Source: Clostridium sp. Marseille-P3244 (GTDB lineage Bacteria; Bacillota; Clostridia; Lachnospirales; Lachnospiraceae). Taken from it: a stretch of 64,000 bases of DNA. The position numbers and the translations under genes are program-made. This document shows, piece by piece, positions 33,133 to 43,889 of the stretch (the stretch's first letter is position 1; each line of letters opens with the position of its first letter). The DNA is taken from contig NZ_LT635548.1 of assembly GCF_900120155.1 (NCBI RefSeq), positions 222,602 to 286,601 of the forward strand. The letters are read 5' to 3'. Below the pieces are notes generated by a model. The model saw only the letters and a program-made list of their open reading frames with translations, did no database searches and was not told the origin of the DNA.

Positions 33133-34137
33133 TTAAAGGAGCCCTGCCTGCTTGGCTACAAGCATCGCACCGGCCGCGCTTAAAGGCACAGCATTTTTCT
33201 CTGGTATATACTGCGTAACTTCCGCACACTTTACCTCTCTGGAAAAAATCTCATACAGGGCCTGCCGGAGCGGATTTTTCCCCGCTATTATAATCCTGGC
33301 CTTCTTCTGGCCTGAAATCGCACTGCTGTTCAACATCCGGATATCACTTTCAAGAATAGCCCCAAGGATATAGCTTGCTATCCGGTCCGGTGTCTGTTCC
33401 AGCAGGATCTCCATGATCCTTCCGCAGAAGCAGGCACGCCCAATCCCCACATCCCGTGCCGTCTTATAGCCCAGCAATGCCATATCACTGTCATAATTTT
33501 CTTCCTCGGCGAAGTGAGAATCCACTGTTTTTGCAATGCTTGTCTCTTTCGTAATGGCCTCCAGCAGTTCCCCGGCAATGGATGTAGCCGAGCCTTGAAT
33601 CTTTCCCTGTTCATCGACAGATATATATTTCGTATGGCTTCCCGGCAACACCAGCAGTTTCTGTCCCTCTTCTGGGAAACGTTGGAGCAGCGCCAGGCTC
33701 TCTACCTCTTCGCCCCGCATCATATCTGCCTGTTCTACGCCGGATAGATTGGATACACTCCCCTGGTTTCTGATCCCTGGAATAAACCAGACCGGCAGTG
33801 GACATATCTCCGGCATGCAATGTTTCTCCATGTGTAGGGACAGTTCTCGGACCCCGGCAGGCGCTTCCACATGGGGGATCTCCACCAGTCCCAGTTCTGA
33901 CGTAATCATTCCTGCGGCCAGAATACTTCCGACGTCATCCCAGCAGATTCCTTCCATATGCAGGATCTGTTCCATGCATTGCCGTAGTCCCGCCTTTAAT
34001 TTCCTGTTAGTCCCGTCAACGGCTGTATTTCTTACTCCTACTGCCGTCTGTGCCAATCGTACCGGTTCTGTTTTGTTCTTCCAGAGGAGTACTCTCGTAT
34101 TTGTAGTTCCTGTGTCTATCGTAAGAATATACTTCAT
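33133..34137 (-). CDS. dgoK: 2-dehydro-3-deoxygalactonokinase
   Basis: A 334-residue sugar-acid kinase phosphorylating 2-keto-3-deoxy-galactonate (or a close analogue) to the 6-phosphate. Seen: phosphate loop LTIDTGTTNTRVLLW at the N-terminus, AAGMITSELGL, LPGSHTKYISVDEQGKIQG near residue 145 and the late ILGAILESDIR region. I start at MKYILTIDTG (34137), with AGGAGG 6 nt upstream. It is the last gene of the operon; its product feeds the aldolase encoded immediately upstream. Confidence 0.9.
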   Translation of the reverse strand: MKYILTIDTGTTNTRVLLWKNKTEPVRLAQTAVGVRNTAVDGTNRKLKAGLRQCMEQILHMEGICWDDVGSILAAGMITSELGLVEIPHVEAPAGVRELSLHMEKHCMPEICPLPVWFIPGIRNQGSVSNLSGVEQADMMRGEEVESLALLQRFPEEGQKLLVLPGSHTKYISVDEQGKIQGSATSIAGELLEAITKETSIAKTVDSHFAEEENYDSDMALLGYKTARDVGIGRACFCGRIMEILLEQTPDRIASYILGAILESDIRMLNSSAISGQKKARIIIAGKNPLRQALYEIFSREVKCAEVTQYIPEKNAVPLSAAGAMLVAKQAGLL

Positions 34138-34162
34138 GCCGGACCTCCTGCCGCTTTTCCCG

Positions 34163-34837
34163 CTATTTCTGGTATGCGCGGATCCTTTCAACATACTTTC
34201 CGGCCAGCTCTGCCATCCTGTCATAATCCCCGCCGCAGATCATGTCTTTTCTCACCAGATTGCCTCCAATGCCAAACATGGAAATCCCTGCGTCACAGAA
34301 CCGGCTAATATTATCCAGATCCACCCCTCCCACTGCTGCCAGAGGGATATAGGGGAATGGACCTCTCAGAGCTTTTATATAAGAAACTCCCAGTACGTCT
34401 GCCGGGAAGATCTTAATAACGTCTGCTCCCCATTCATATGCATTTTCAATCTCTGTCGGGCTCATCGCGCCTGCCATAACAAACAGTCCAAGCTCTTTTC
34501 CACAGCGGATGACATCCTGCTTTGCAGAAGGCGTTATAATAAAACTACTTCCCGCATCATACGCAGCCTGTACCTGTTCTGGTGACAGAACCGTTCCGGC
34601 TCCACAGAGTACGTTTTCTCTGCTGAAATTGGTGAGCACCGTCTTTATTTTTTCTGTCGTGTATTCCGGTGTCTTTGTTTGATCAAACGGAATCTCGACT
34701 AATGTGATTCCCCCCTTTTTCAGTGCGTCTACAGTTGCAGGAAGCCGCTCTTGATCTACTCCTCTCAGAATAGCGATTAGTTTCTCATTGAAAAAACGTT
34801 TTTTATATGCTTTATTTTCCAAACAGCCATTCATCAT
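34163..34837 (-). CDS. KDPG/KDPGal aldolase
   Basis: A 224-residue class I aldolase cleaving 2-keto-3-deoxy-6-phospho-gluconate or -galactonate to pyruvate and glyceraldehyde-3-phosphate. Seen: LIAILRG, the Glu in LVEIPFD, GAGTVLSPEQV, FIITPSAKQDVI carrying the Schiff-base region, and MAGAMSPTEIENAYEWGADVIKIFPADVLG with the catalytic Lys (IKIFP). GPFPYIPLAAVGGVDLDN is the phosphate-binding end. Pairing with DgoK favours the galacto-configured substrate. The start overlaps the SDR stop by 26 nt. Confidence 0.93.
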   Translation of the reverse strand: MMNGCLENKAYKKRFFNEKLIAILRGVDQERLPATVDALKKGGITLVEIPFDQTKTPEYTTEKIKTVLTNFSRENVLCGAGTVLSPEQVQAAYDAGSSFIITPSAKQDVIRCGKELGLFVMAGAMSPTEIENAYEWGADVIKIFPADVLGVSYIKALRGPFPYIPLAAVGGVDLDNISRFCDAGISMFGIGGNLVRKDMICGGDYDRMAELAGKYVERIRAYQK

Positions 34838-35705
34838 ATCTTCTGATTCCTTCTTCCAGAGTTATCTGGGGTTTATAGCCAAAATCTTCCCAGGCCCTGC
34901 TGTTGTCCATCCTCCCAATATTATCATATCCCAGTCCGCCGCTCCCTATCTCCATCCTGGCCTGTGGAAACAGTTCCTGGACAATCTTTACAACATTCCG
35001 GTATGGAGTGAACATACCCCCACCCATATTGTAAACTTTATACCTCAGTTTCTCTGCACCCACAGCCTGTGTCATGCCGCGGACTACGTCATCAATGTAT
35101 ACATAATCCAGATACTGGTCTGCTCCGGAGTCCCATCTCACTGCTGTATTCTCATGGACTGCCTTAAGCAGCATCGCAATCGGACACTCACGGACACGTC
35201 CCGGTCCATATACGAACCCAATACGAAGGATCCCACACTCGATTCCGTAATTTTTTACAACTTCCTCGGCAGCGATCTTGGACGAATCATAAGCACATTC
35301 CGACTGCAGCGGCATGTCCTCAGTAATCGGATCTGAGATGTTATTGCCATATACCCCGGCTGCACTGGCAAAAAGATATCTTTTTACTCCGGTGATCCTT
35401 GCTGCTTCTATGGAATTGATCACACCTGCCAGGTTGATCTGGAACATTTTGTACGGGTCATCCGCCGCCATCTTCGGATGGGACAAAGCCGCGTTGTGTA
35501 CCACAACTTCCACCTGGTGATCCAGCATTGCCTGGACCATACGGCTGATTTCATATAATTCCCCTATGTACGGGAAAAAATGTTGGTTTTTAATGTCCGG
35601 AATATTTCGGGAATATCCGACTACATCATAGCCTTCATCCAAAAGTTTCTTCACCAAAGCATGCCCGATCAGTCCGCTGCATCCGATCACCATAACTGTT
35701 TTCAA
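34812..35705 (-). CDS. Extended SDR: NAD-dependent epimerase/dehydratase family protein
   Basis: A 297-residue extended short-chain dehydrogenase. Nucleotide motif GCSGLIGHAL, NAALSHP, Ser in FASAAGVYG and catalytic YDSSK; the C-terminal half has VYGPGRVREC and DYVYIDDVVRGM as in sugar epimerases and uronate/sugar dehydrogenases. In this operon it could oxidise or epimerise the sugar before dehydration to the 2-keto-3-deoxy acid; the substrate cannot be told from sequence. TTG start at 35705 with GGGGG 8 nt upstream; an ATG four codons later is possible. Confidence 0.85.
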   Translation of the reverse strand: MKTVMVIGCSGLIGHALVKKLLDEGYDVVGYSRNIPDIKNQHFFPYIGELYEISRMVQAMLDHQVEVVVHNAALSHPKMAADDPYKMFQINLAGVINSIEAARITGVKRYLFASAAGVYGNNISDPITEDMPLQSECAYDSSKIAAEEVVKNYGIECGILRIGFVYGPGRVRECPIAMLLKAVHENTAVRWDSGADQYLDYVYIDDVVRGMTQAVGAEKLRYKVYNMGGGMFTPYRNVVKIVQELFPQARMEIGSGGLGYDNIGRMDNSRAWEDFGYKPQITLEEGIRRYDEWLFGK

Positions 35706-35724
35706 GACAACTGCCCCCTTCCTG

Positions 35725-36732
35725 CTATTTTAAAGTTGATGACGGCTCGATCTCTCCGTTCAGTACTTGTTCCGTAGCTTCCGCCACCGCATCCTGTACA
35801 TCCTGCGGAACATCGATATAGTCTGTAGCCATTTTCAGGGTTGTCCCTTCTGCAACACTCCTATAGATTACGCGACCCTCAAAATTCCCCTCTGCATATT
35901 CCTTCATCGCCTCATATACCCACTCATCGTATGGTGTCACAAAAGAGCCAATCACCTGTCCGGGGAGATCCCCGTTCTGATCCACGTCGATACCGATCAC
36001 ATAATGTCCTTCACCCAGTTCTTTCGCGCTCTCAAAAACGCCCTTTCCAGATTCTGCGGCCGCCTGGAAAATGATATCGCATCCCTCATTGTACAGAAGA
36101 TCCGCCATCTGCTTTCCCTTGGTAGGATCCGAGAAATCGCCGACGAACATTACTTCCACTTCACAGTCCGGATTGGAAGCGGCAACACCGTCCACAAAAC
36201 CGCCGCCTACTCTGCCAAGCTGATCGTTGTCCACACCGCCGAGGAACGCTACCTTGTTCGTTTTTGTCATCAGTCCCGCATACACTCCTGTAATATAGGT
36301 TCCGTACTGTTCCTCGTTCCATGTGCTGATTACATTGTCACCGTCTGCCTCGCCAAGCGCGATCATAAATTTTGTATCCGGATAGTCAGGCGCCACTCTT
36401 CCGACTGCTTCCTGCAGTTCCGGCATATTGGCGATAATGAGTCCGTATCCCTCCTCGCAGAGAGCCCGGAAATTTTCTTCATATTCTCCGGCTTTCGCCT
36501 CTACAACAGTCGTCTCTTCAAAGCCAAACTCCTCTACAGCTTTTTCAAAACCCGCGTAGCACAGATCAATCGTAGGGTCTCCAAGTGGCTGCACCGTCAC
36601 AAATGCAGCGCTCATTGTGATATCTCCTCCTTCAGCTTCCCCGCTGCTCTGTTCCTTGTCTCCACCGGAGCATCCTGCCGCAAGAACCAGCATAACCATA
36701 CAAAGAAGTACTGCCAACAATCTCTTTTTCAT
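35725..36732 (-). CDS. BMP-family ABC transporter substrate-binding lipoprotein
   Basis: A 335-residue lipoprotein with signal peptide MKKRLLAVLLCMVMLVLAAGC (split before Cys21 by signal peptidase II) and a BMP/PnrA-like periplasmic-binding fold: GFEETTVVEAK, ICDIIFQAAAESGKGVFE and VIGIDVDQNGDLPGQVIGSF. Family members bind nucleosides and some sugars or vitamins. It is the binding protein for the two permeases and ATPase encoded upstream. AGGAGG precedes the ATG. Confidence 0.92.
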   Translation of the reverse strand: MKKRLLAVLLCMVMLVLAAGCSGGDKEQSSGEAEGGDITMSAAFVTVQPLGDPTIDLCYAGFEKAVEEFGFEETTVVEAKAGEYEENFRALCEEGYGLIIANMPELQEAVGRVAPDYPDTKFMIALGEADGDNVISTWNEEQYGTYITGVYAGLMTKTNKVAFLGGVDNDQLGRVGGGFVDGVAASNPDCEVEVMFVGDFSDPTKGKQMADLLYNEGCDIIFQAAAESGKGVFESAKELGEGHYVIGIDVDQNGDLPGQVIGSFVTPYDEWVYEAMKEYAEGNFEGRVIYRSVAEGTTLKMATDYIDVPQDVQDAVAEATEQVLNGEIEPSSTLK

Positions 36733-36773
36733 ACATATTCCTCCTAATTGTTCTCATGAATTTAAATAACGGA

Positions 36774-37700
36774 TTACTGAACTGCTTTCTTTACTGCTCT
36801 TTTGATCTTCTGCTTCTTTTTTTCCAACATGAGCTGAATAATCGTCAGCGCGATCACGCAGATGTATGGGATCATCAGGATCAAATAGGATGAGTACTCA
36901 TAAAGCTGCAGATAATTCGACAGCATTTCCGCCGTTCCGAACAGCATCGTCACCAGAAGCACCCGCAGGGCATTTCCCCGGGCAAACATGACCGCCACCA
37001 GCGCGATGAATCCTCTGCCTGCCGTCATGCCTTCCGTGAACATAGACAGATATCCAATGGACAACTGAGCACCTGCCAGTCCGCATAGGACTCCTGTGAT
37101 GACCAAAGTCAGAAGGCGGATCCTGTAGACACTGATTCCCACCGTCGCGGCAGCCTGCGGATTTTCTCCGCTGGATATGATCTGCAATCCCAGCTGCGTC
37201 TTTTTCAGAATAAAATATGCCAGGAATACACTGATATACGCAAAGCATACCAGAATATTCAGATCTGTCATAAAGCCGCCCAAAATCGGAATATCCTTCA
37301 GCACCGGCACGGAAAACTCAGGGATCTTTACGATCCGTTCCGATACCAGTGACCCGGAGACATCGAAGATCGTCCTGAGCAGAAAGATTGACAATCCGTC
37401 TAAAAGCACATTCATCGTAAAGCCGACCACCAGCTCAGCCCCGCCGAATTTGATCGTTATCAGAGCAAAGAAAAGCGATGCTGCCAGTCCGGCTCCCACA
37501 CCGGCCAGTATGCCTGTGATCCAGTTTTCTGTAAAATAGCATCCGGCAACTGCCGCGAAAGCAGAAATCAGCATTGTTCCTTCCAGGGAAATATTGGTCA
37601 CTCCTGCCCTGTCACACAGCAAAGAACCGATCGCGCACAGCAGAATCGGCGCAGATACTGCCAGTACGGTAATGATAAGATTATTCAGCATCTGGTTCAT
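36774..37700 (-). CDS. BMP-type ABC transporter permease (NupQ/YufQ-like)
   Basis: A 308-residue inner-membrane permease of the BPD_transp_2 family with about eight helices. Typical motifs GVTNISLEGTMLISAF and MTAGRGFIALVAVMFARGNALRV are present. It pairs with the 37681-38790 permease as a heterodimer. The start overlaps the upstream gene by 20 nt. AGGAGG is very close to the first ATG, so the ATG three codons in may be used. Confidence 0.93.
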   Translation of the reverse strand: MNQMLNNLIITVLAVSAPILLCAIGSLLCDRAGVTNISLEGTMLISAFAAVAGCYFTENWITGILAGVGAGLAASLFFALITIKFGGAELVVGFTMNVLLDGLSIFLLRTIFDVSGSLVSERIVKIPEFSVPVLKDIPILGGFMTDLNILVCFAYISVFLAYFILKKTQLGLQIISSGENPQAAATVGISVYRIRLLTLVITGVLCGLAGAQLSIGYLSMFTEGMTAGRGFIALVAVMFARGNALRVLLVTMLFGTAEMLSNYLQLYEYSSYLILMIPYICVIALTIIQLMLEKKKQKIKRAVKKAVQ

Positions 37701-38790
37701 CTCCTCCTTTCTTTCTTATTTTATAGAAAGCCCTTTTCGCTGTTTCTGTCAGCCTGTCCAGTCCGATATAGGCGGACAGATATCTCGCCGATACGAAACA
37801 GATGATAAAAGCTTTGATTACTTCCGCAAGGGCTCTTGGCACCTCGGCGCTTCTCTCTACTACCAGGGAACCCGCTTTCATCGCCCCCATAAACAGCGCT
37901 CCGAGGAAAAGTCCGAATGGTTCATTCCCTCCCAGAAGGGACGCCAGAATTCCTTCAATCCCGAAATCCGGTGAAAATCCTGATTCATAACGCCAGGTAA
38001 CGCCCATTACCTCCGCGGCCCCGCACAGTCCGGCTATCGCCCCGCTCAGCAGCATCGCGCGCCACCGGATCTGATCGACCTGGATCCCGCCATAATGAGA
38101 AAATTCACTGTTCAATCCTGTCATTGATACCCGAAATCCGGCTTTCGTATACTTTAACGCAAAATGCGCGAGGATGATCAGCGCTACCGCGATCACAAAT
38201 CCATATGTCACTGTGTACGGCGGTATGATTTTCTCCAGTCTGGCATTTTCACTGATCAGTTCTGTCGCCATAGTCTGTCCGTAGGTATCCTCCGGCAGAA
38301 AAAATGTCTGCGTCAAATAATCGCACAGATACATGGCGATATAATTCATCATCATTGCCGGAATGGCCTCATTTCCTCCCAGACGTACCCGGATCAGTGC
38401 CGGGATTACTGCCCACAGACATCCGGAGATCATGGCTGCCCCAAAACAGACCAAGATGTGCAGAAACATGGGCAGTCCCTCAAAATAGATACCGGCCAGC
38501 GCCGCCGCAAAAGCTCCCATATACAGCTGTCCGTCTACTCCAAAATTAAACATCCCGCCCCGGAAGGCTACCGTTGCCGCCAGTCCCGCAAACAGCAGAG
38601 GCGTTGTCCAGCGAAGGGTGGACGCAATAGCGGACGGGCTGCCAAAGGCACCGCTTATCATATAGCCATAAACTATAATAGGATTATTCCCGGTAAAAGC
38701 AATAAAAATTGATCCGACAATCAGACCCAGTATAATCGCCAGGATCGCTGAACTGATCTTGATCGGCTGCTGTCTGAAATCAAAATTCAC
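37681..38790 (-). CDS. BMP-type ABC transporter permease (NupP/YufP-like)
   Basis: A 369-residue permease of the same family: MNFDFRQQPIKISSAILAIILGLIVG start, FRGGMFNFGVDGQLYMGAFAAALAG, RVRLGGNEAIPAMMMNYIA and a C-terminal GIEGILASLLGGNEPFGL. GTG start with GGAGG 9 nt upstream, overlapping the ATPase stop as GTGA. A C-terminal Lys/Arg-rich tail is cytoplasmic. Confidence 0.93.
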   Translation of the reverse strand: MNFDFRQQPIKISSAILAIILGLIVGSIFIAFTGNNPIIVYGYMISGAFGSPSAIASTLRWTTPLLFAGLAATVAFRGGMFNFGVDGQLYMGAFAAALAGIYFEGLPMFLHILVCFGAAMISGCLWAVIPALIRVRLGGNEAIPAMMMNYIAMYLCDYLTQTFFLPEDTYGQTMATELISENARLEKIIPPYTVTYGFVIAVALIILAHFALKYTKAGFRVSMTGLNSEFSHYGGIQVDQIRWRAMLLSGAIAGLCGAAEVMGVTWRYESGFSPDFGIEGILASLLGGNEPFGLFLGALFMGAMKAGSLVVERSAEVPRALAEVIKAFIICFVSARYLSAYIGLDRLTETAKRAFYKIRKKGGDEPDAE

Positions 38791-40316
38791 GAAGCGTCAC
38801 CTCCTTTGATTCCGGCCATCAGAAGCCCGATATCTTCCTCGCTGCTCTCATTTGTCGTAGTCTCGCCGATAATCCTCCCGTTATACATCACCAGGATCCG
38901 GTCACTTAACGACATGATCTCAGACAGTTCATACGATACCAGCAGGATAGCTACGCCTTTTTCTCTCTGTTCCAGTAGTTTTTCATGGATAAAAGTTGTT
39001 GCGCCTATATCCACGCCCCGAGTCGGCTGAGCAGCGATCAGCACAGTCGGTTCTGCCAGCATTTCCCGTGCCACTATTGTTTTTTGGAGATTTCCTCCTG
39101 AAAGGGAATAGGCCGGATCTTCTATCTTTCCATATTTGATCCCATACATTTTATAGGCTTCCTCCGCTTTTACCTTTTGGCTTCGCCAGTTGATAAGCGG
39201 TGAGCCGCCCCTCTGATTGATAAAGTTTCCCATACTGTAGTTCTGCAGCAGGGATGCTTCCAGCGCCGCTCCTCTTGACTGCCGGTCTTCCGGGATATGC
39301 ATCAGACCTTGTAAACGCCTCTTTGCCACACCATCCTGTGCGCGAAATTCTTTCCCGCCTATAATAACAGTGCCGTCATACTCATTTTCAAATCCTGTGA
39401 TCACATCGATCAGATCTGTCTGCCCATTTCCCTGGACACCTGCAACTCCCACTATCTCCCCGGCCCGCACCTCAAAAGATACTTGATCCAGAGTCTGCAC
39501 GCCAAATTTGTCATATCTGGTCAGATCCGTCACTTTTAACCTGACTTCTCCTGGCCGGTGTTCTTCCTTTGTGACTTCCATATTCATCTTTTTCCCTACC
39601 ATCATCCGGGCGATCTCCTCTTCCGAGGTCTCGCTGGTCTTCAGATGTCCGGTTACTTTCCCGTTCCTTAAGATCGTAATATCATCTGTCACAGAGGTCA
39701 GTTCCGCCAGCTTATGTGTGATCAGAACGATACTCTTTCCCTTTTCCTTTAATTCCTTGAGCGTAATAAAAAGCTGTCTGATCTCCTGGGGGGTCAGGAT
39801 CGCTGTCGGCTCATCCAGGATCAGAATATCTGCCCCAAGGTAAAGAGCCTTCAAAATTTCCACTCTCTGACAGATTCCTACCGGAAGGTCTTCCACAACG
39901 GCCAGCGGATCTACTTTCAGATTGTAGAGCTCTGACATTTCCCGGATTTTTTTGATGGCCCTGTCCCGGTCGATTACACCCAGTCCTTTTTTAGGCGGAT
40001 TCCCCAGTATGATATTCTGCGCCACAGTCAGTGACGGAACCAGGGTGAAATGCTGGTGTACCATACCGATCCCGTGCTGGATCGCTGTTTTTGGAGAAGT
40101 CAGCCTGACCTCCTTTCCGTTGATCCTGATGCTTCCCTCATCCGGGCTGTACATCCCGTACAGGATCTTCATCAGCGTTGTCTTCCCGGCCCCGTTTTCC
40201 CCAATCAGGCCGTGGATACAATAATCCTTGCAGACAAAATCCACTTTGTCATTTGCTGTGACAGCGCCAAAACGCTTTGTGATCCCTGTCATTTCCACAC
40301 GGTTTCCCATGATCAT
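38787..40316 (-). CDS. BMP-type ABC transporter ATP-binding protein (two ABC domains)
   Basis: A 509-residue ATPase with two ABC modules. The first has a complete Walker A (GENGAGKTT) and Walker B (LILDEPTAILTP); its signature region LPVGICQRVEILKAL is degenerate, as is usual in this family. The second has a degenerate Walker A (VQGNGQTDLI) and a good signature (LSGGNLQKTIVARE). This asymmetry is normal for nucleoside and monosaccharide importers. ATGA overlap with the regulator gene upstream. Confidence 0.94.
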   Translation of the reverse strand: MIMGNRVEMTGITKRFGAVTANDKVDFVCKDYCIHGLIGENGAGKTTLMKILYGMYSPDEGSIRINGKEVRLTSPKTAIQHGIGMVHQHFTLVPSLTVAQNIILGNPPKKGLGVIDRDRAIKKIREMSELYNLKVDPLAVVEDLPVGICQRVEILKALYLGADILILDEPTAILTPQEIRQLFITLKELKEKGKSIVLITHKLAELTSVTDDITILRNGKVTGHLKTSETSEEEIARMMVGKKMNMEVTKEEHRPGEVRLKVTDLTRYDKFGVQTLDQVSFEVRAGEIVGVAGVQGNGQTDLIDVITGFENEYDGTVIIGGKEFRAQDGVAKRRLQGLMHIPEDRQSRGAALEASLLQNYSMGNFINQRGGSPLINWRSQKVKAEEAYKMYGIKYGKIEDPAYSLSGGNLQKTIVAREMLAEPTVLIAAQPTRGVDIGATTFIHEKLLEQREKGVAILLVSYELSEIMSLSDRILVMYNGRIIGETTTNESSEEDIGLLMAGIKGGDAS

Positions 40317-41101
40317 CCGTTCCTTTCTTCCTCTTCATCGGAAAACTGTATTCCTCTCAGTGCGTCATCCCGCAGTTTTTCAAGATGCCGTTTCATGTGT
40401 CGGGCGGCTTTGTCCGGGTCTCTCTCCTCCATGGATCGCAGAATCCGCCAATGATCCTGTGCATTTTCATAATTGTGATATTTTGGCTGTACATCAAAGC
40501 TGTTTTCTATATTCCACTGTTCATCCAGCAAAATGTCCATGATCGTCATCACAAACCGGTTATCTGCCACTGCGGCGATTTCTTTATGGAACTGTGCATT
40601 CAGCCTTGTGACAAGAGAAAGGTCTTCCGGATGCGCATCTACTTCTGTCAGGATCCTCTTCATCCGCCCGACAGCCTCCTCTGTCAGGTTCAGCACGGCC
40701 CTGCGCACGGAATCAGTCTCCAGCAGGATCCTTACGGTAATGATATCCTCCAGTTGTTTTGAAGAATCGATCTTCACTGAATTCATCAGTCTGTTGTTCA
40801 GATAAAACCGGCGGATCTCGTTCTGATTTTTCCGGACATACTCCCTGCCCTTTTCCGTGATCATCCGTCCTTCATTGTTTTCAAGACTTGTATACCCGTC
40901 TCCATCGGAAGCTTTCAGAGCCCTTCCTACTGTGGCCAGACTGGTTTTCAGACCCTGCTCTTTCAGCTTGTTTGTCAGAACCCAGCTTCCCATAGACGTG
41001 TCTGACTCAGCCAGATACTCCAGGATCAGAAACCGCATGATCTCTGAATTTGATCTGAAAAACCCACTTTTTCTGATCTGCTGATAATTCATATCCTGCA
41101 T
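40313..41101 (-). CDS. FCD-domain transcriptional regulator with atypical winged-helix
   Basis: A 262-residue regulator encoded inside the operon it probably controls. Residues ~100-245 form an FCD ligand domain as in FadR-type GntR regulators, with the metal-binding pattern (NAQFHKEIA, QDHWRIL, KAARHMKRHLE). The N-terminal ~85 residues are not a standard GntR helix-turn-helix: FLILEYLAESDTSMGSWVL, LKTSLATVGRALK and ITEKGREYV look like the winged helix of NrpR/RNase R-type domains. AGGAG precedes the ATG. Ligand inferred to be a sugar acid. Confidence 0.83.
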   Translation of the reverse strand: MQDMNYQQIRKSGFFRSNSEIMRFLILEYLAESDTSMGSWVLTNKLKEQGLKTSLATVGRALKASDGDGYTSLENNEGRMITEKGREYVRKNQNEIRRFYLNNRLMNSVKIDSSKQLEDIITVRILLETDSVRRAVLNLTEEAVGRMKRILTEVDAHPEDLSLVTRLNAQFHKEIAAVADNRFVMTIMDILLDEQWNIENSFDVQPKYHNYENAQDHWRILRSMEERDPDKAARHMKRHLEKLRDDALRGIQFSDEEEERNG

Positions 41102-41110
41102 ACTGGTCTC

Positions 41111-42484
41111 CTATAATGATTCTTCAGAAATTTCCCTAGGGTTGATAAATCTGCCGTATCCTTTCTCTGCCAGAATACGTCCGCTGTCATAGACGATTTT
41201 TCCTCTGACGATCGTTTTGTCTACCGCGCCTTTGATCTTCCATCCGTCATAGGGGCTCCATTTCTGTTTATAATATAATTTTCCGCCGTCAACGATCCAT
41301 TCTCTTCCCATGTCCACAATTGCAAAATCTGCATCTGCCCCGATCCGCAGGCATCCCTTTCTCGGATATATTCCAAATTTTTTGGCTGCGTTTGTCGACA
41401 GAAGCTTTGCTGTCTCGGCCGCAGAAAATCCGTGTCTGTTCATACATGCATCCAAAGTCAGCGGAGCCAGCGTCGCAACGCCCGGCATGCCGTTTTCACA
41501 TGCCCAGATATCTTCTTTTGCCGCCAGTTTTTCCTCGTACAGATAATCGGTATGATCCGATGTGATCATAGTGATCGTCCCGTTTCTTAAGTATTCCCAC
41601 ATTGCTTCTGTATTTTCCGGTCTGCGCAGGGGAGGCGTACACTTCGCGAACCCGGCACGCTCTTCCAGCAGCCTGCAGTCCGCCGCGATATAATGTGGGC
41701 AGGTTTCCGCGCTGATATCCACACCTCTCTGCTGTGCTTTTCTGATCTGTTCAGCTCCTCCGGCAATAGTCATGTGTACGATGTGCATATGACCGCCGGT
41801 CTGTTCCGTAAAAAAGATCACCCGGTTGATAGCTTCCAACTCCACGATCTCGTCCCGGCTCTCCATGTGTGCCAGAGGATCCCGGCGCCCCTGCGCCTTC
41901 ATCCTCTTTTCTCCTGTATCCGCCATCTCCGCATTCTCCGCATGTACAGCCAGAAGAAAGCCTTTTTTTCTGGACAGACGGAGGGCGTCATAGAGCACAG
42001 AGTCGGGAATGTGGGGATAATCTTCATTGCAGTATGAGATGAAACCTTTAAACGCTACTGCTCCCATTGCATACATCTTTTCCAGTTCCTTGAGATTGTC
42101 CGGGACAAGCGCTCCCCAAAGAGCAAAATCCACGCAGGATTTTTCGCCTGCCGTCCTTTTTTTCAACGCAAAAGAAGCCTCGTCTTTTACAGGCGGAATA
42201 CTCAAAGGGTGCTCTATGATCGTGGTGATCCCTCCTGCTGCCGCTGCTCTGGACGCATAATACCAGTCGTCCCGGATCCCTCGTCCCGGATCCCAGCAGT
42301 GTACATGAGGGTCAATAAATCCCGGGAATATATATTTCCCCTCCGCGTCAACAGTCTGCCGCGCTTCTCCGATCTCTCCTTCCTGTCCGATACAGACGAT
42401 CCTTCCGTCCCGAATCCCGACCTCACCGCATACAACACCGTTTTCCAGCACCAGTATGCCGTTCCTGATTGCTAAATCAAGCAA
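41111..42484 (-). CDS. Allantoinase/dihydropyrimidinase-like cyclic-amide hydrolase
   Basis: A 457-residue metal-dependent amidohydrolase. Metal-site residues: HxH in DPHVHCWDP (His60, His62), a carboxylatable Lys in AFKGFISY, His in AVHAENAEM, His in HIVHMT, Asp in TSDHTDY. The overall pattern is closest to allantoinase and dihydroorotase. No purine or pyrimidine genes lie nearby; its operon partners are a sugar-acid kinase, aldolase and a nucleoside-type importer, so the substrate is probably an unusual cyclic amide, imide or lactone. TTG start with AGAAGGTG upstream. First gene of the operon. Confidence 0.85.
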   Translation of the reverse strand: MLDLAIRNGILVLENGVVCGEVGIRDGRIVCIGQEGEIGEARQTVDAEGKYIFPGFIDPHVHCWDPGRGIRDDWYYASRAAAAGGITTIIEHPLSIPPVKDEASFALKKRTAGEKSCVDFALWGALVPDNLKELEKMYAMGAVAFKGFISYCNEDYPHIPDSVLYDALRLSRKKGFLLAVHAENAEMADTGEKRMKAQGRRDPLAHMESRDEIVELEAINRVIFFTEQTGGHMHIVHMTIAGGAEQIRKAQQRGVDISAETCPHYIAADCRLLEERAGFAKCTPPLRRPENTEAMWEYLRNGTITMITSDHTDYLYEEKLAAKEDIWACENGMPGVATLAPLTLDACMNRHGFSAAETAKLLSTNAAKKFGIYPRKGCLRIGADADFAIVDMGREWIVDGGKLYYKQKWSPYDGWKIKGAVDKTIVRGKIVYDSGRILAEKGYGRFINPREISEESL

Positions 42485-42541
42485 ACTTTCACCTTCTTTC
42501 TCTTCTCTGAGCGCCTCTTTCCTGACTGCTCATCTATGATG

Positions 42542-42570
42542 AGTATAAAGCTTCTGTTTTTCGCCTTCAA
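42542..42570 (-). promoter_or_regulatory. Promoter of the amidohydrolase/BMP/dgoK operon
   Basis: On the minus strand TTGAAG (42565-42570) and TATACT (42542-42547) are 17 bp apart, about 55 nt before the TTG start codon. Confidence 0.6.
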
Positions 42571-42660
42571 TTTACTCATTTTCTTTTTGTAACTATTTCT
42601 AATTTTGAATAGGTATGTTTGTGCATTTTCCTGTTTTGATGTTTTTATCTGTTTTTTCGT

Positions 42661-42710
42661 TTGACAATTACATTTTTTCGAGATTATTATATTTTTGTCA
42701 AAAAATTGTC
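42661..42710 (+). promoter_or_regulatory. Divergent promoter of the Asp-box gene with possible operator
   Basis: TTGACA (42661-42666) and TATTAT (42685-42690) are 18 bp apart. GACAATT at 42663-42669 is mirrored by AATTGTC at 42704-42710, so a dimeric regulator could span the promoter. The whole divergent region 42485-42746 is AT-rich and otherwise featureless. Confidence 0.55.
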
Positions 42711-42746
42711 GGAAAATTATATCGTTTTTGAAATGGAGGTATAGAA

Positions 42747-43889
42747 ATGGACTATCTTGATCCTGCCATGACCCCTGCTATCTTAAAATTCAATCCAGAG
42801 GAAAATGAATTTCAAGATTCGGTGCGCCGCTGGCAGGCTGCGCCTTCTGTTGAGGCACTGGACAACGGTTCTGTCTTTGTCATATTTTACGGGGGAGCTG
42901 AGCCGGAGGTACCTGGCAATTACATAAAAGTCATTATAAGCACTGACCGGGGGCTGACCTTCTCGGGAGATTCTATTGTGATCAAGCATCCGGATCCAGC
43001 CATCCGCCTCTATGATCCGAACATATGGCTGGACCCGGAAGGACGCCTCTGGCTGTTCTGGAATCAGGGCCGGGGTTTCAATGACGGACGGGCAGGCGTA
43101 TGGGCTTCCGTATGTCAGCATCCGCAGGTTCCTTTCCGGGAACTCACCTTTTCAGAGCCCCGCCGGATCGCCAACGGAGTCATGATCAATAAACCGCTCG
43201 TGTTGTCCAGCGGAGAATGGCTCCTGCCATGCGCGATCTGGATCAGCGAACCCCCGACTGAGGACCATGGGCTCCAGGACGAATATTATCCTAATGTCTA
43301 TATTTCCTCTGACCGCGGGAAAACTTTCCATCTCCTGGGGCATGCCGATATGCCCAACCGGAGTTTTGATGAACATATGCTGTATGAAAAAAAGGACGGC
43401 ACCATCTGGATGCTCAGCCGGACTTTTGACGGAATTGGGGAAAGCTTTTCCAAAGATAAAGGAAGGACATGGTCTGCCGGACGGAAATGTCATATTGACG
43501 GCCCCTGCTCCCGGTTCTTTATCCGGCGCCTTTCCTCCGGAAATCTGCTCATGGTCAATCATTATCAGTTTGAGGAGCGCATTGATCTGGAAGAAATCAG
43601 AAAACAGGGACCGGTAAAATCCTGGCGCGGCAGGACAAATCTGACTGCCATGATAAGCCGGGATGAGGGACAGACCTGGGCGGGTACACTGCTCCTGGAT
43701 CCCAGGAACGACGCAGCATATCCCGATGCCACCGAACGCGGCGGATTTATCTATATCACATATGACTGGGAAAGAGTAACAGAAAGAGAGATACTGCTGT
43801 CAAGAATCACTGAAAAAGAAATCCTGGACGGAGTGATCTCCAGCCCGGATTCCTTTCTGGCCCACACCATAAATAAGGCATACGGATGA
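42747..43889 (+). CDS. Cytoplasmic sialidase-fold protein with four Asp-boxes
   Basis: A 380-residue beta-propeller protein of the BNR/sialidase superfamily. Four Asp-boxes are visible (STDRGLTF, SSDRGKTF, SKDKGRTW, SRDEGQTW). There is no signal peptide, so it acts inside the cell, unlike secreted sialidases, and the Arg-Ile-Pro motif of true sialidases is not seen. Similar intracellular propellers are found beside sugar-acid genes. By context it may cleave a glycoside or uronide brought in by the BMP importer. GGAGG is 7 nt before the ATG. Transcribed divergently from the operon. Confidence 0.85.
   Translation: MDYLDPAMTPAILKFNPEENEFQDSVRRWQAAPSVEALDNGSVFVIFYGGAEPEVPGNYIKVIISTDRGLTFSGDSIVIKHPDPAIRLYDPNIWLDPEGRLWLFWNQGRGFNDGRAGVWASVCQHPQVPFRELTFSEPRRIANGVMINKPLVLSSGEWLLPCAIWISEPPTEDHGLQDEYYPNVYISSDRGKTFHLLGHADMPNRSFDEHMLYEKKDGTIWMLSRTFDGIGESFSKDKGRTWSAGRKCHIDGPCSRFFIRRLSSGNLLMVNHYQFEERIDLEEIRKQGPVKSWRGRTNLTAMISRDEGQTWAGTLLLDPRNDAAYPDATERGGFIYITYDWERVTEREILLSRITEKEILDGVISSPDSFLAHTINKAYG

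Follow-up and report, generated by a model that had tools for sequence, protein, structure and literature searches.

A candidate catabolic unit joining allantoinase-type ring openers, an Asp-box propeller and 2-keto-3-deoxy sugar acid enzymes in Firmicutes and Actinobacteria

What would a bacterium break down with an allantoinase-like hydrolase, a sialidase-like propeller and the last two enzymes of a sugar acid pathway, all encoded at one locus? The question is raised by a 64,000-nucleotide stretch of Clostridium sp. Marseille-P3244 (contig NZ_LT635548.1, positions 222,602 to 286,601; hereafter the window), in which nine leftward genes run from 42484 to 33133, adjacent open reading frames overlapping or lying no more than 41 bp apart, and a gene for an Asp-box (BNR_2) propeller diverges from them. 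An earlier note on this DNA had proposed an undescribed catabolic pathway here. Pfam and NCBIfam searches confirmed its genes, their positions and the layout of operon and divergent propeller, and placed the ATPase and both permeases of an ATP-binding cassette (ABC) importer in the operon as well. We found no pathway of this kind in the open-access literature searched; it is conserved and apparently undescribed, and its framework is supported. We tentatively read it as a route for the catabolism of a cyclic ureide, with a hydantoin- or allantoin-like ring joined to a hexonic acid skeleton, a reading that by our estimate from sequence comparison stands somewhat short of an even chance.

We searched 84,980 species, one genome each, using two peptide patterns of the propeller family and no other gene. 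After a tblastn check of the 46 pattern matches, 30 loci were kept (BNR loci), 19 from Firmicutes and 11 from Actinobacteria; contig ends cut the Firmicutes loci L006, L009, L011 and L023. An allantoinase-type gene lies within ∼10 kb of the propeller in every one of the 30, and this recurrence, in loci found through the propeller alone, bears out the earlier claim of a single functional unit. The unit is sporadic in the genus, since 57 other genomes of the same genus yielded two weak matches to the propeller (E 5e-4 and 6e-6) and no strong one; L003 to L005 are weak matches. A search of 398 sampled genomes of the phylum added one further, partial match at E ≤ 1e-60. The propeller family as a whole numbers 1,977 proteins at E ≤ 0.001, of which one member (P0081) represents 668 contigs.

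The ring opener itself differs between the two phyla. All 19 Firmicutes loci have an AllB-like amidohydrolase (AMH), its gene being truncated where the contig ends in L006 and lying ∼10 kb away, cut by the fetched stretch, in L012. All 11 actinobacterial loci have a PuuE-type allantoinase that scores above the curated cut-off no more than ∼5 kb from the propeller, by positions converted from contig coordinates, and this is the sole PuuE over the cut-off in 10 of the 11 genomes, Rhodococcus having a second. AllB and PuuE differ in fold, so their exchange is a non-orthologous displacement, and opening of an allantoin-like ring is therefore needed by the pathway. This replacement also supports the view that, as the earlier note had it, the cyclic-amide hydrolase belongs to the unit. 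The window AMH passes the curated cut-off of the AllB allantoinase model TIGR03178 (387.2 against 357.85 bits), and the best models for this protein are allantoinases. In an alignment of ten sequences, the window protein and those of 9 of the 19 Firmicutes loci, residues H60, H62, K146, H181, H237 and D310, which we take to form the binuclear metal site, are invariant, and allantoinase models match all ten at E ≤ 1e-30.

A second exchange was seen on proteobacterial plasmids. Nine plasmid records (four of Klebsiella pneumoniae, two of Shinella and three of Sinorhizobium medicae) carry a PuuE 67-69% identical to the propeller-linked PuuE, and the four of these examined all have an M20 carbamoylase and a RidA protein and no propeller. 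The K. pneumoniae plasmid pKPN-80a resembles the Streptomyces units in the S (65% identity) and T (57%) components of an energy-coupling factor (ECF) importer, in its extended short-chain dehydrogenase/reductase (SDR; 43%), in PuuE (69%) and in its FCD regulator (29%), and has the M20 carbamoylase-family hydrolase and RidA without a propeller. Both Shinella records hold M20, PuuE, SDR, an rbs-type importer, RidA and a classical SDR; S. medicae T2 holds RidA, M20 and PuuE, with no match to the extended SDR. Among 38 records with a propeller match there was no Klebsiella, Shinella, Sinorhizobium or Paracoccus plasmid. When the 30 BNR loci were scanned by tblastn at E ≤ 1e-8, a threshold that a very divergent RidA could escape, none had RidA, and an M20 homologue was found in one (L031, ∼9 kb from the propeller). 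The gene content and linkage of the units, the exchange of AllB-like protein for PuuE and that of propeller for M20 plus RidA are observed in the loci examined. From the last of these we infer that propeller and M20 plus RidA may be alternatives for one stage, the conversion of a ring-opened carbamoyl compound to a 2-oxo acid. RidA acts on imines, which suggests that the future keto carbon bears a nitrogen. Formation of a 2-oxo acid by either route would account for the origin of a 2-keto-3-deoxy acid although the operon encodes no dehydratase; in agreement with the earlier note, Pfam found no dehydratase domain among the ten locus proteins, galactonate dehydratase not having been searched for elsewhere in the genome. 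E. coli genomes gave no close match to the plasmid unit. The annotated neighbors of the PuuE/ECF unit on pKPN-80a (L061, 11814-15920) include a cytosine permease, a dihydropyrimidinase and another M20 hydrolase.

The exit of the pathway is marked by a kinase for 2-keto-3-deoxygluconate (KDG) or 2-keto-3-deoxygalactonate (KDGal) and an aldolase for the corresponding 6-phosphates (KDPG, KDPGal). The window aldolase, the only PF01081 match in its genome, has Val at the type-defining residue of the AVGGV stretch by alignment, which presumably marks a KDPGal-type enzyme. Kinase and aldolase types agree in all seven complete pairs: a Val-type aldolase with DgoK in the window and in two Cellulosimicrobium loci (L025, L027), and a Thr-type aldolase with a PfkB kinase in L018, L021, L030 and L034. 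Left out of this count were L022, where the aldolase is cut, and L026, which has a PfkB match and no aldolase match. Matched pairs are thus present in Actinobacteria and in loci of Oscillospiraceae as well as in the window, and uphold the exit through a KDG/KDGal kinase and a KDPG-family aldolase that had been proposed. Genome-wide, a KDPG-family aldolase was present in 21 of 21 genomes with a BNR locus (the window genome and those of 20 of the 30 loci), compared with 8 of 14 controls, the genomes not all being independent lineages. The De Ley-Doudoroff galactonate pathway (DgoK, DgoA) shares the kinase and the Val-type KDPG-family aldolase; unlike it, the window operon lacks a galactonate dehydratase, and the locus has a ring hydrolase, a propeller and a BMP importer.

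The reactions, their order and the class of substrate may be pictured as follows. The compound would be imported by the BMP ABC transporter and would undergo a redox step catalyzed by the SDR. AMH, or PuuE in Actinobacteria, would hydrolyze the cyclic amide and so form a ureido (N-carbamoyl) acid, and the propeller would cleave the C-N bond at C2 of a 2-ureido-3-deoxy sugar acid, releasing urea and KDGal, or KDG in relatives. DgoK would phosphorylate KDGal, and the aldolase would then yield pyruvate and glyceraldehyde 3-phosphate. In the proteobacterial relatives, the M20 carbamoylase and RidA (imine hydrolysis) would stand in the propeller's place and give the same type of 2-oxo acid. No dehydratase would be needed, since the propeller itself would supply the KDG/KDGal route with a 2-oxo acid. 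A cyclic ureide of hydantoin or allantoin type fits better than the simple lactone or lactam of the earlier proposal. In hydantocidin-type spironucleosides the anomeric carbon of a sugar bears a hydantoin, the kind of compound that this chemistry would open; the likeness is one of structural analogy, and the literature found on them appears to concern synthesis or inhibition and not breakdown. In its most specific form, the proposal would make the propeller an enzyme of C-N cleavage, either a ureido-ketosidase or a ureide lyase, central to the catabolism of natural sugar-fused hydantoins in Firmicutes and Actinobacteria; Proteobacteria would use a variant with carbamoylase plus RidA. That version we hold to be unlikely; we know of no C-N cleavage by an Asp-box propeller fold.

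Table 1. Genes and intergenic region of the locus, with positions in the window
Feature	Position	Strand	Evidence
AllB-like amidohydrolase (AMH), first operon gene, TTG start	41111..42484	-	TIGR03178 387.2 bits
FCD/GntR-type regulator	40313..41101	-	PF07729 75.6 bits
ABC importer ATPase, two nucleotide-binding domains	38787..40316	-	PF00005, two stretches
ABC importer permease 1 (BPD_transp_2)	37681..38790	-	PF02653 133.3 bits
ABC importer permease 2 (BPD_transp_2)	36774..37700	-	PF02653 113.2 bits
BMP/PnrA-type substrate-binding protein	35725..36732	-	PF02608 190.5 bits
Extended SDR, YDSSK motif	34812..35705	-	PF01370 139.1 bits
KDPG/KDPGal aldolase, AVGGV	34163..34837	-	PF01081 119 bits
DgoK-type 2-keto-3-deoxygalactonate kinase	33133..34224 (likely start 34137)	-	PF05035 122.2 bits
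Asp-box (BNR_2) propeller, divergent from operon	42747..43889	+	PF13088 69.5 bits
Divergent intergenic region	42485..42746	.	candidate operator 42598-42629

A number of observations weigh against the cyclic-ureide pathway. To our knowledge no sugar hydantoin is common in nature, and the ring openers look like ordinary allantoinases. The K. pneumoniae PuuE is 62% identical to that of a typical urate cluster in Pseudanabaena, so that allantoin itself may be the ring, and Methylobacterium (59%) provides a second such cluster. A carbamoylase over the cut-off is encoded elsewhere in 9 of the 21 genomes with a BNR locus, and short, weak AMH-like tblastn matches occur far from the propeller in two actinobacterial loci (L026 and L034). 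The exchange for M20 plus RidA is known from four plasmid loci of three genera, and in the related unit of Paracoccus yeei (PuuE 63%) M20 is accompanied by SDR and a Liv-type importer and no RidA is annotated. Four Firmicutes loci with a BMP-type importer (L007, L015, L019 and L023, the last cut at a contig end) gave no SDR match, and in five others an aldo/keto reductase takes the place of SDR (Pfam on the L018 copy). In the window SDR the YxxxK motif is present, and Ala occupies the position of a Ser that the alignment shows to be conserved in related cluster SDRs. The DgoK assignments in the two Cellulosimicrobium loci are weak tblastn matches (23%, E about 1e-9 to 1e-8). Lastly, an aldolase lies inside the locus in 3 of 19 Firmicutes (L018, L021 and L022, the last one cut) and 4 of 11 actinobacterial loci (L025, L027, L030 and L034). 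The expectation that the clusters would hold together in other genomes is accordingly borne out for propeller and ring opener and only in part for the exit enzymes, which may be optional or encoded elsewhere in relatives because kinase and aldolase are in the locus in a minority of cases.

The leading rival, a serious one although we consider it doubtful, has allantoin or a simple hydantoin as substrate: AMH or PuuE would make allantoate, the propeller would be a new type of allantoicase or ureidoglycolate-cleaving enzyme that releases urea, the SDR would oxidize a product, and kinase and aldolase would be an added sugar acid module. The minority occurrence of the latter pair suits this explanation, as do the scores of the window AMH and the 11 PuuE proteins above curated allantoinase cut-offs and the closeness of the K. 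pneumoniae PuuE to those of urate clusters. M20 is, we presume, of the AllC superfamily, so that PuuE with M20 and RidA can be read as allantoin breakdown. An ammonium transporter gene adjoins the propeller in L007, and near that of L028 is a protein whose family presumably includes tartronate semialdehyde reductase. Against allantoin speak the two unrelated KDG-type kinases, each with its matching aldolase type, and the sugar-type importers (rbs, BMP). The window genome gave no match to TIGR01879, which we take to cover AllC relatives, or to PF04115 (ureidoglycolate lyase), other allantoate routes not having been searched for, and the locus proteins scanned included no product of a urate-pathway gene, though no systematic search for such genes was made. 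Known allantoin catabolism (AllB or PuuE, then AllC) is thus like the present units in having a ring opener of either allantoinase type, to which the related plasmid units add an M20 amidase, and differs in that the window has a propeller, SDR, KDGal kinase and aldolase instead of an AllC-type amidase or ureidoglycolate lyase match.

Improbable in our view is the alternative in which AMH is a lactonase, the SDR oxidizing an aldose to a lactone, AMH opening it and the propeller dehydrating the aldonate to KDGal. It would supply the De Ley-Doudoroff steps without a dehydratase domain in the operon, and the extended SDR family includes sugar dehydrogenases. However, both exchangeable ring openers come from cyclic-amide families, M20 and RidA in the related units point to nitrogen chemistry, and we know of no propeller dehydratase of this fold.

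To the idea that the propeller is a sialidase-like ketosidase that cleaves a 2-ulosonic acid glycoside after its import, while the amidohydrolase works on an N-acyl group, we likewise assign little probability. It has in its favor the Asp-box repeats and BNR_2 domain shared with GH33 exo-sialidases, four Asp boxes being found in the window propeller (residues 65, 187, 235 and 304) and three or four in the other 16 sequences aligned, and the weak similarity of the FCD regulator to NanR (65.8 bits against a cut-off of 260). Window-type propellers nonetheless differ from these sialidases: none of the 17 aligned sequences has the RIP motif, presumably the carrier of the first carboxylate-binding Arg in GH33 sialidases, and all 17 have a WQxxPS stretch; profile matches to solved sialidases are weak (best E 2.9e-7, 33 bits), and no signal peptide was seen by eye in the window protein. 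It is probably not a classical sialidase. Distant homologues (∼26% identity) on Pantoea and Roseomonas plasmids, which can be cited for the sialidase alternative, have an SSF symporter and a DapA-family aldolase in their vicinity, that of Pantoea also lying beside a YhcH-family protein. The aldolases, symporters and YhcH near these homologues hint that the wider propeller family handles 2-keto-3-deoxy acids. The E. coli relative of YhcH is reported to be an N-acetylneuraminic acid anomerase (PMC8141875). A propeller homologue on a Streptomyces plasmid has an oligopeptide-type importer and a DapA-family protein nearby. No sialic acid lyase, epimerase or N-acetylmannosamine kinase domain was found among the ten locus proteins, and AllB and PuuE are again cyclic-amide families.

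Sialic acid, galactonate and sugar-oxidation or lactone readings rank below the cyclic-ureide pathway because of the missing RIP motif, the lack of a dehydratase domain in the operon and the linked cyclic-amide enzymes. A chance neighborhood of unrelated genes, to which the sporadic occurrence of the unit might point, we reject as next to incredible, given the propeller-allantoinase linkage in all 30 loci from two phyla. DgaE/DgaF-type neighborhoods, which combine a deacetylase-type amidohydrolase and a pyridoxal phosphate (PLP) enzyme, also place an amidohydrolase gene beside a KDPG aldolase; the window operon differs in having an allantoinase-type protein and no PLP enzyme.

Two sets of matches were set aside. 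AMH relatives in two other Clostridia (L085 and L086; 411 and 404 bits, compared with 719 for the window) have no propeller, SDR or FCD matches at E ≤ 1e-8, and L085, with M20 nearby, looks like an ordinary allantoin/hydantoin unit. Matches to PF00449 in the window genome are not urease; they are short and lie within amidohydrolase-like frames, among which is the window AMH.

The importer differs from unit to unit, so that the BMP type, part of the pathway proposed in the earlier note, is not a defining component. The 19 Firmicutes loci divide into BMP (5), rbs (5), Liv (5) and SSF (3) types with one unassigned, where one binding protein or symporter was scanned for each rbs, Liv and SSF group and the others were assigned by sequence clustering or tblastn; the Liv-type assignment of L018 relies on one ATPase frame. 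ECF S and T components are present in all 11 actinobacterial loci, bringing the importer types to five. The window importer is complete, with a BMP binding protein, two permeases and a double ATPase, and is matched by NCBIfam B6-transporter models at scores below their cut-offs. An extended SDR is found in 8 of 19 Firmicutes and all 11 actinobacterial loci. Ala at its Ser position was also seen by eye in P0128, P0129, P0131 and P0134; the conserved Ser of cluster SDRs is presumably catalytic, and a changed reaction is possible in the window-type enzyme. FCD regulator relatives occur in 12 of 19 Firmicutes and 9 of 11 actinobacterial loci, the L026 copy ∼8 kb from the propeller. A full actinobacterial arrangement is that of L030, in the order FCD, propeller, ECF S, T, two ATPases, SDR, PfkB-type KDG/KDGal kinase and KDPG aldolase, with PuuE divergent.

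Some loci have further genes. In the Liv-type units L009, L017, L021 and L022 the AllB-like amidohydrolase is accompanied by a second one, of TRZ/ATZ or formimidoylglutamate-deiminase type (by clustering; Pfam/NCBIfam on the L021 copy). In Clostridium asparagiforme (L012, 8045-9696) a formamidase-like protein (FmdA) and an arylformamidase/cyclase-like protein are encoded between propeller and SDR. Carbamoyl-phosphate synthase genes directly follow the BMP-type units of L015 (2-2388) and L019 (3-2479; Pfam on the L019 copies, L015 by clustering). The ammonium transporter gene of Petroclostridium X23 (L007, 11435-12832) comes after the propeller, and the protein of Streptomyces sp. S465 mentioned above (L028, 14012-14899), of 6-phosphogluconate/3-hydroxyisobutyrate dehydrogenase type, is encoded ∼3 kb beyond it.

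At the window locus itself (Table 1), the flanks are unrelated to the unit, with a VTT domain protein and a glycosyltransferase on one side and an acyltransferase, a DinB-type protein and a Clp ATPase on the other. For DgoK a start at 34137 (MKYILTIDTG) is more likely than one at 34224. The stretch at 42598-42629, around TTTTGA..AGG....TTGTGCATT, is also present in the divergent intergenic region of L006 in a two-sequence alignment, and within L006 (689-803) a similar stretch occurs twice; it is a possible FCD operator.

If the cyclic-ureide pathway is correct, a large protein family now named sialidase would gain a role, and gut and soil bacteria would be seen to use an overlooked nutrient, imported by five transporter types. 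The exchanges of AllB-like protein for PuuE and of propeller for M20 plus RidA narrow the chemistry enough for direct testing.

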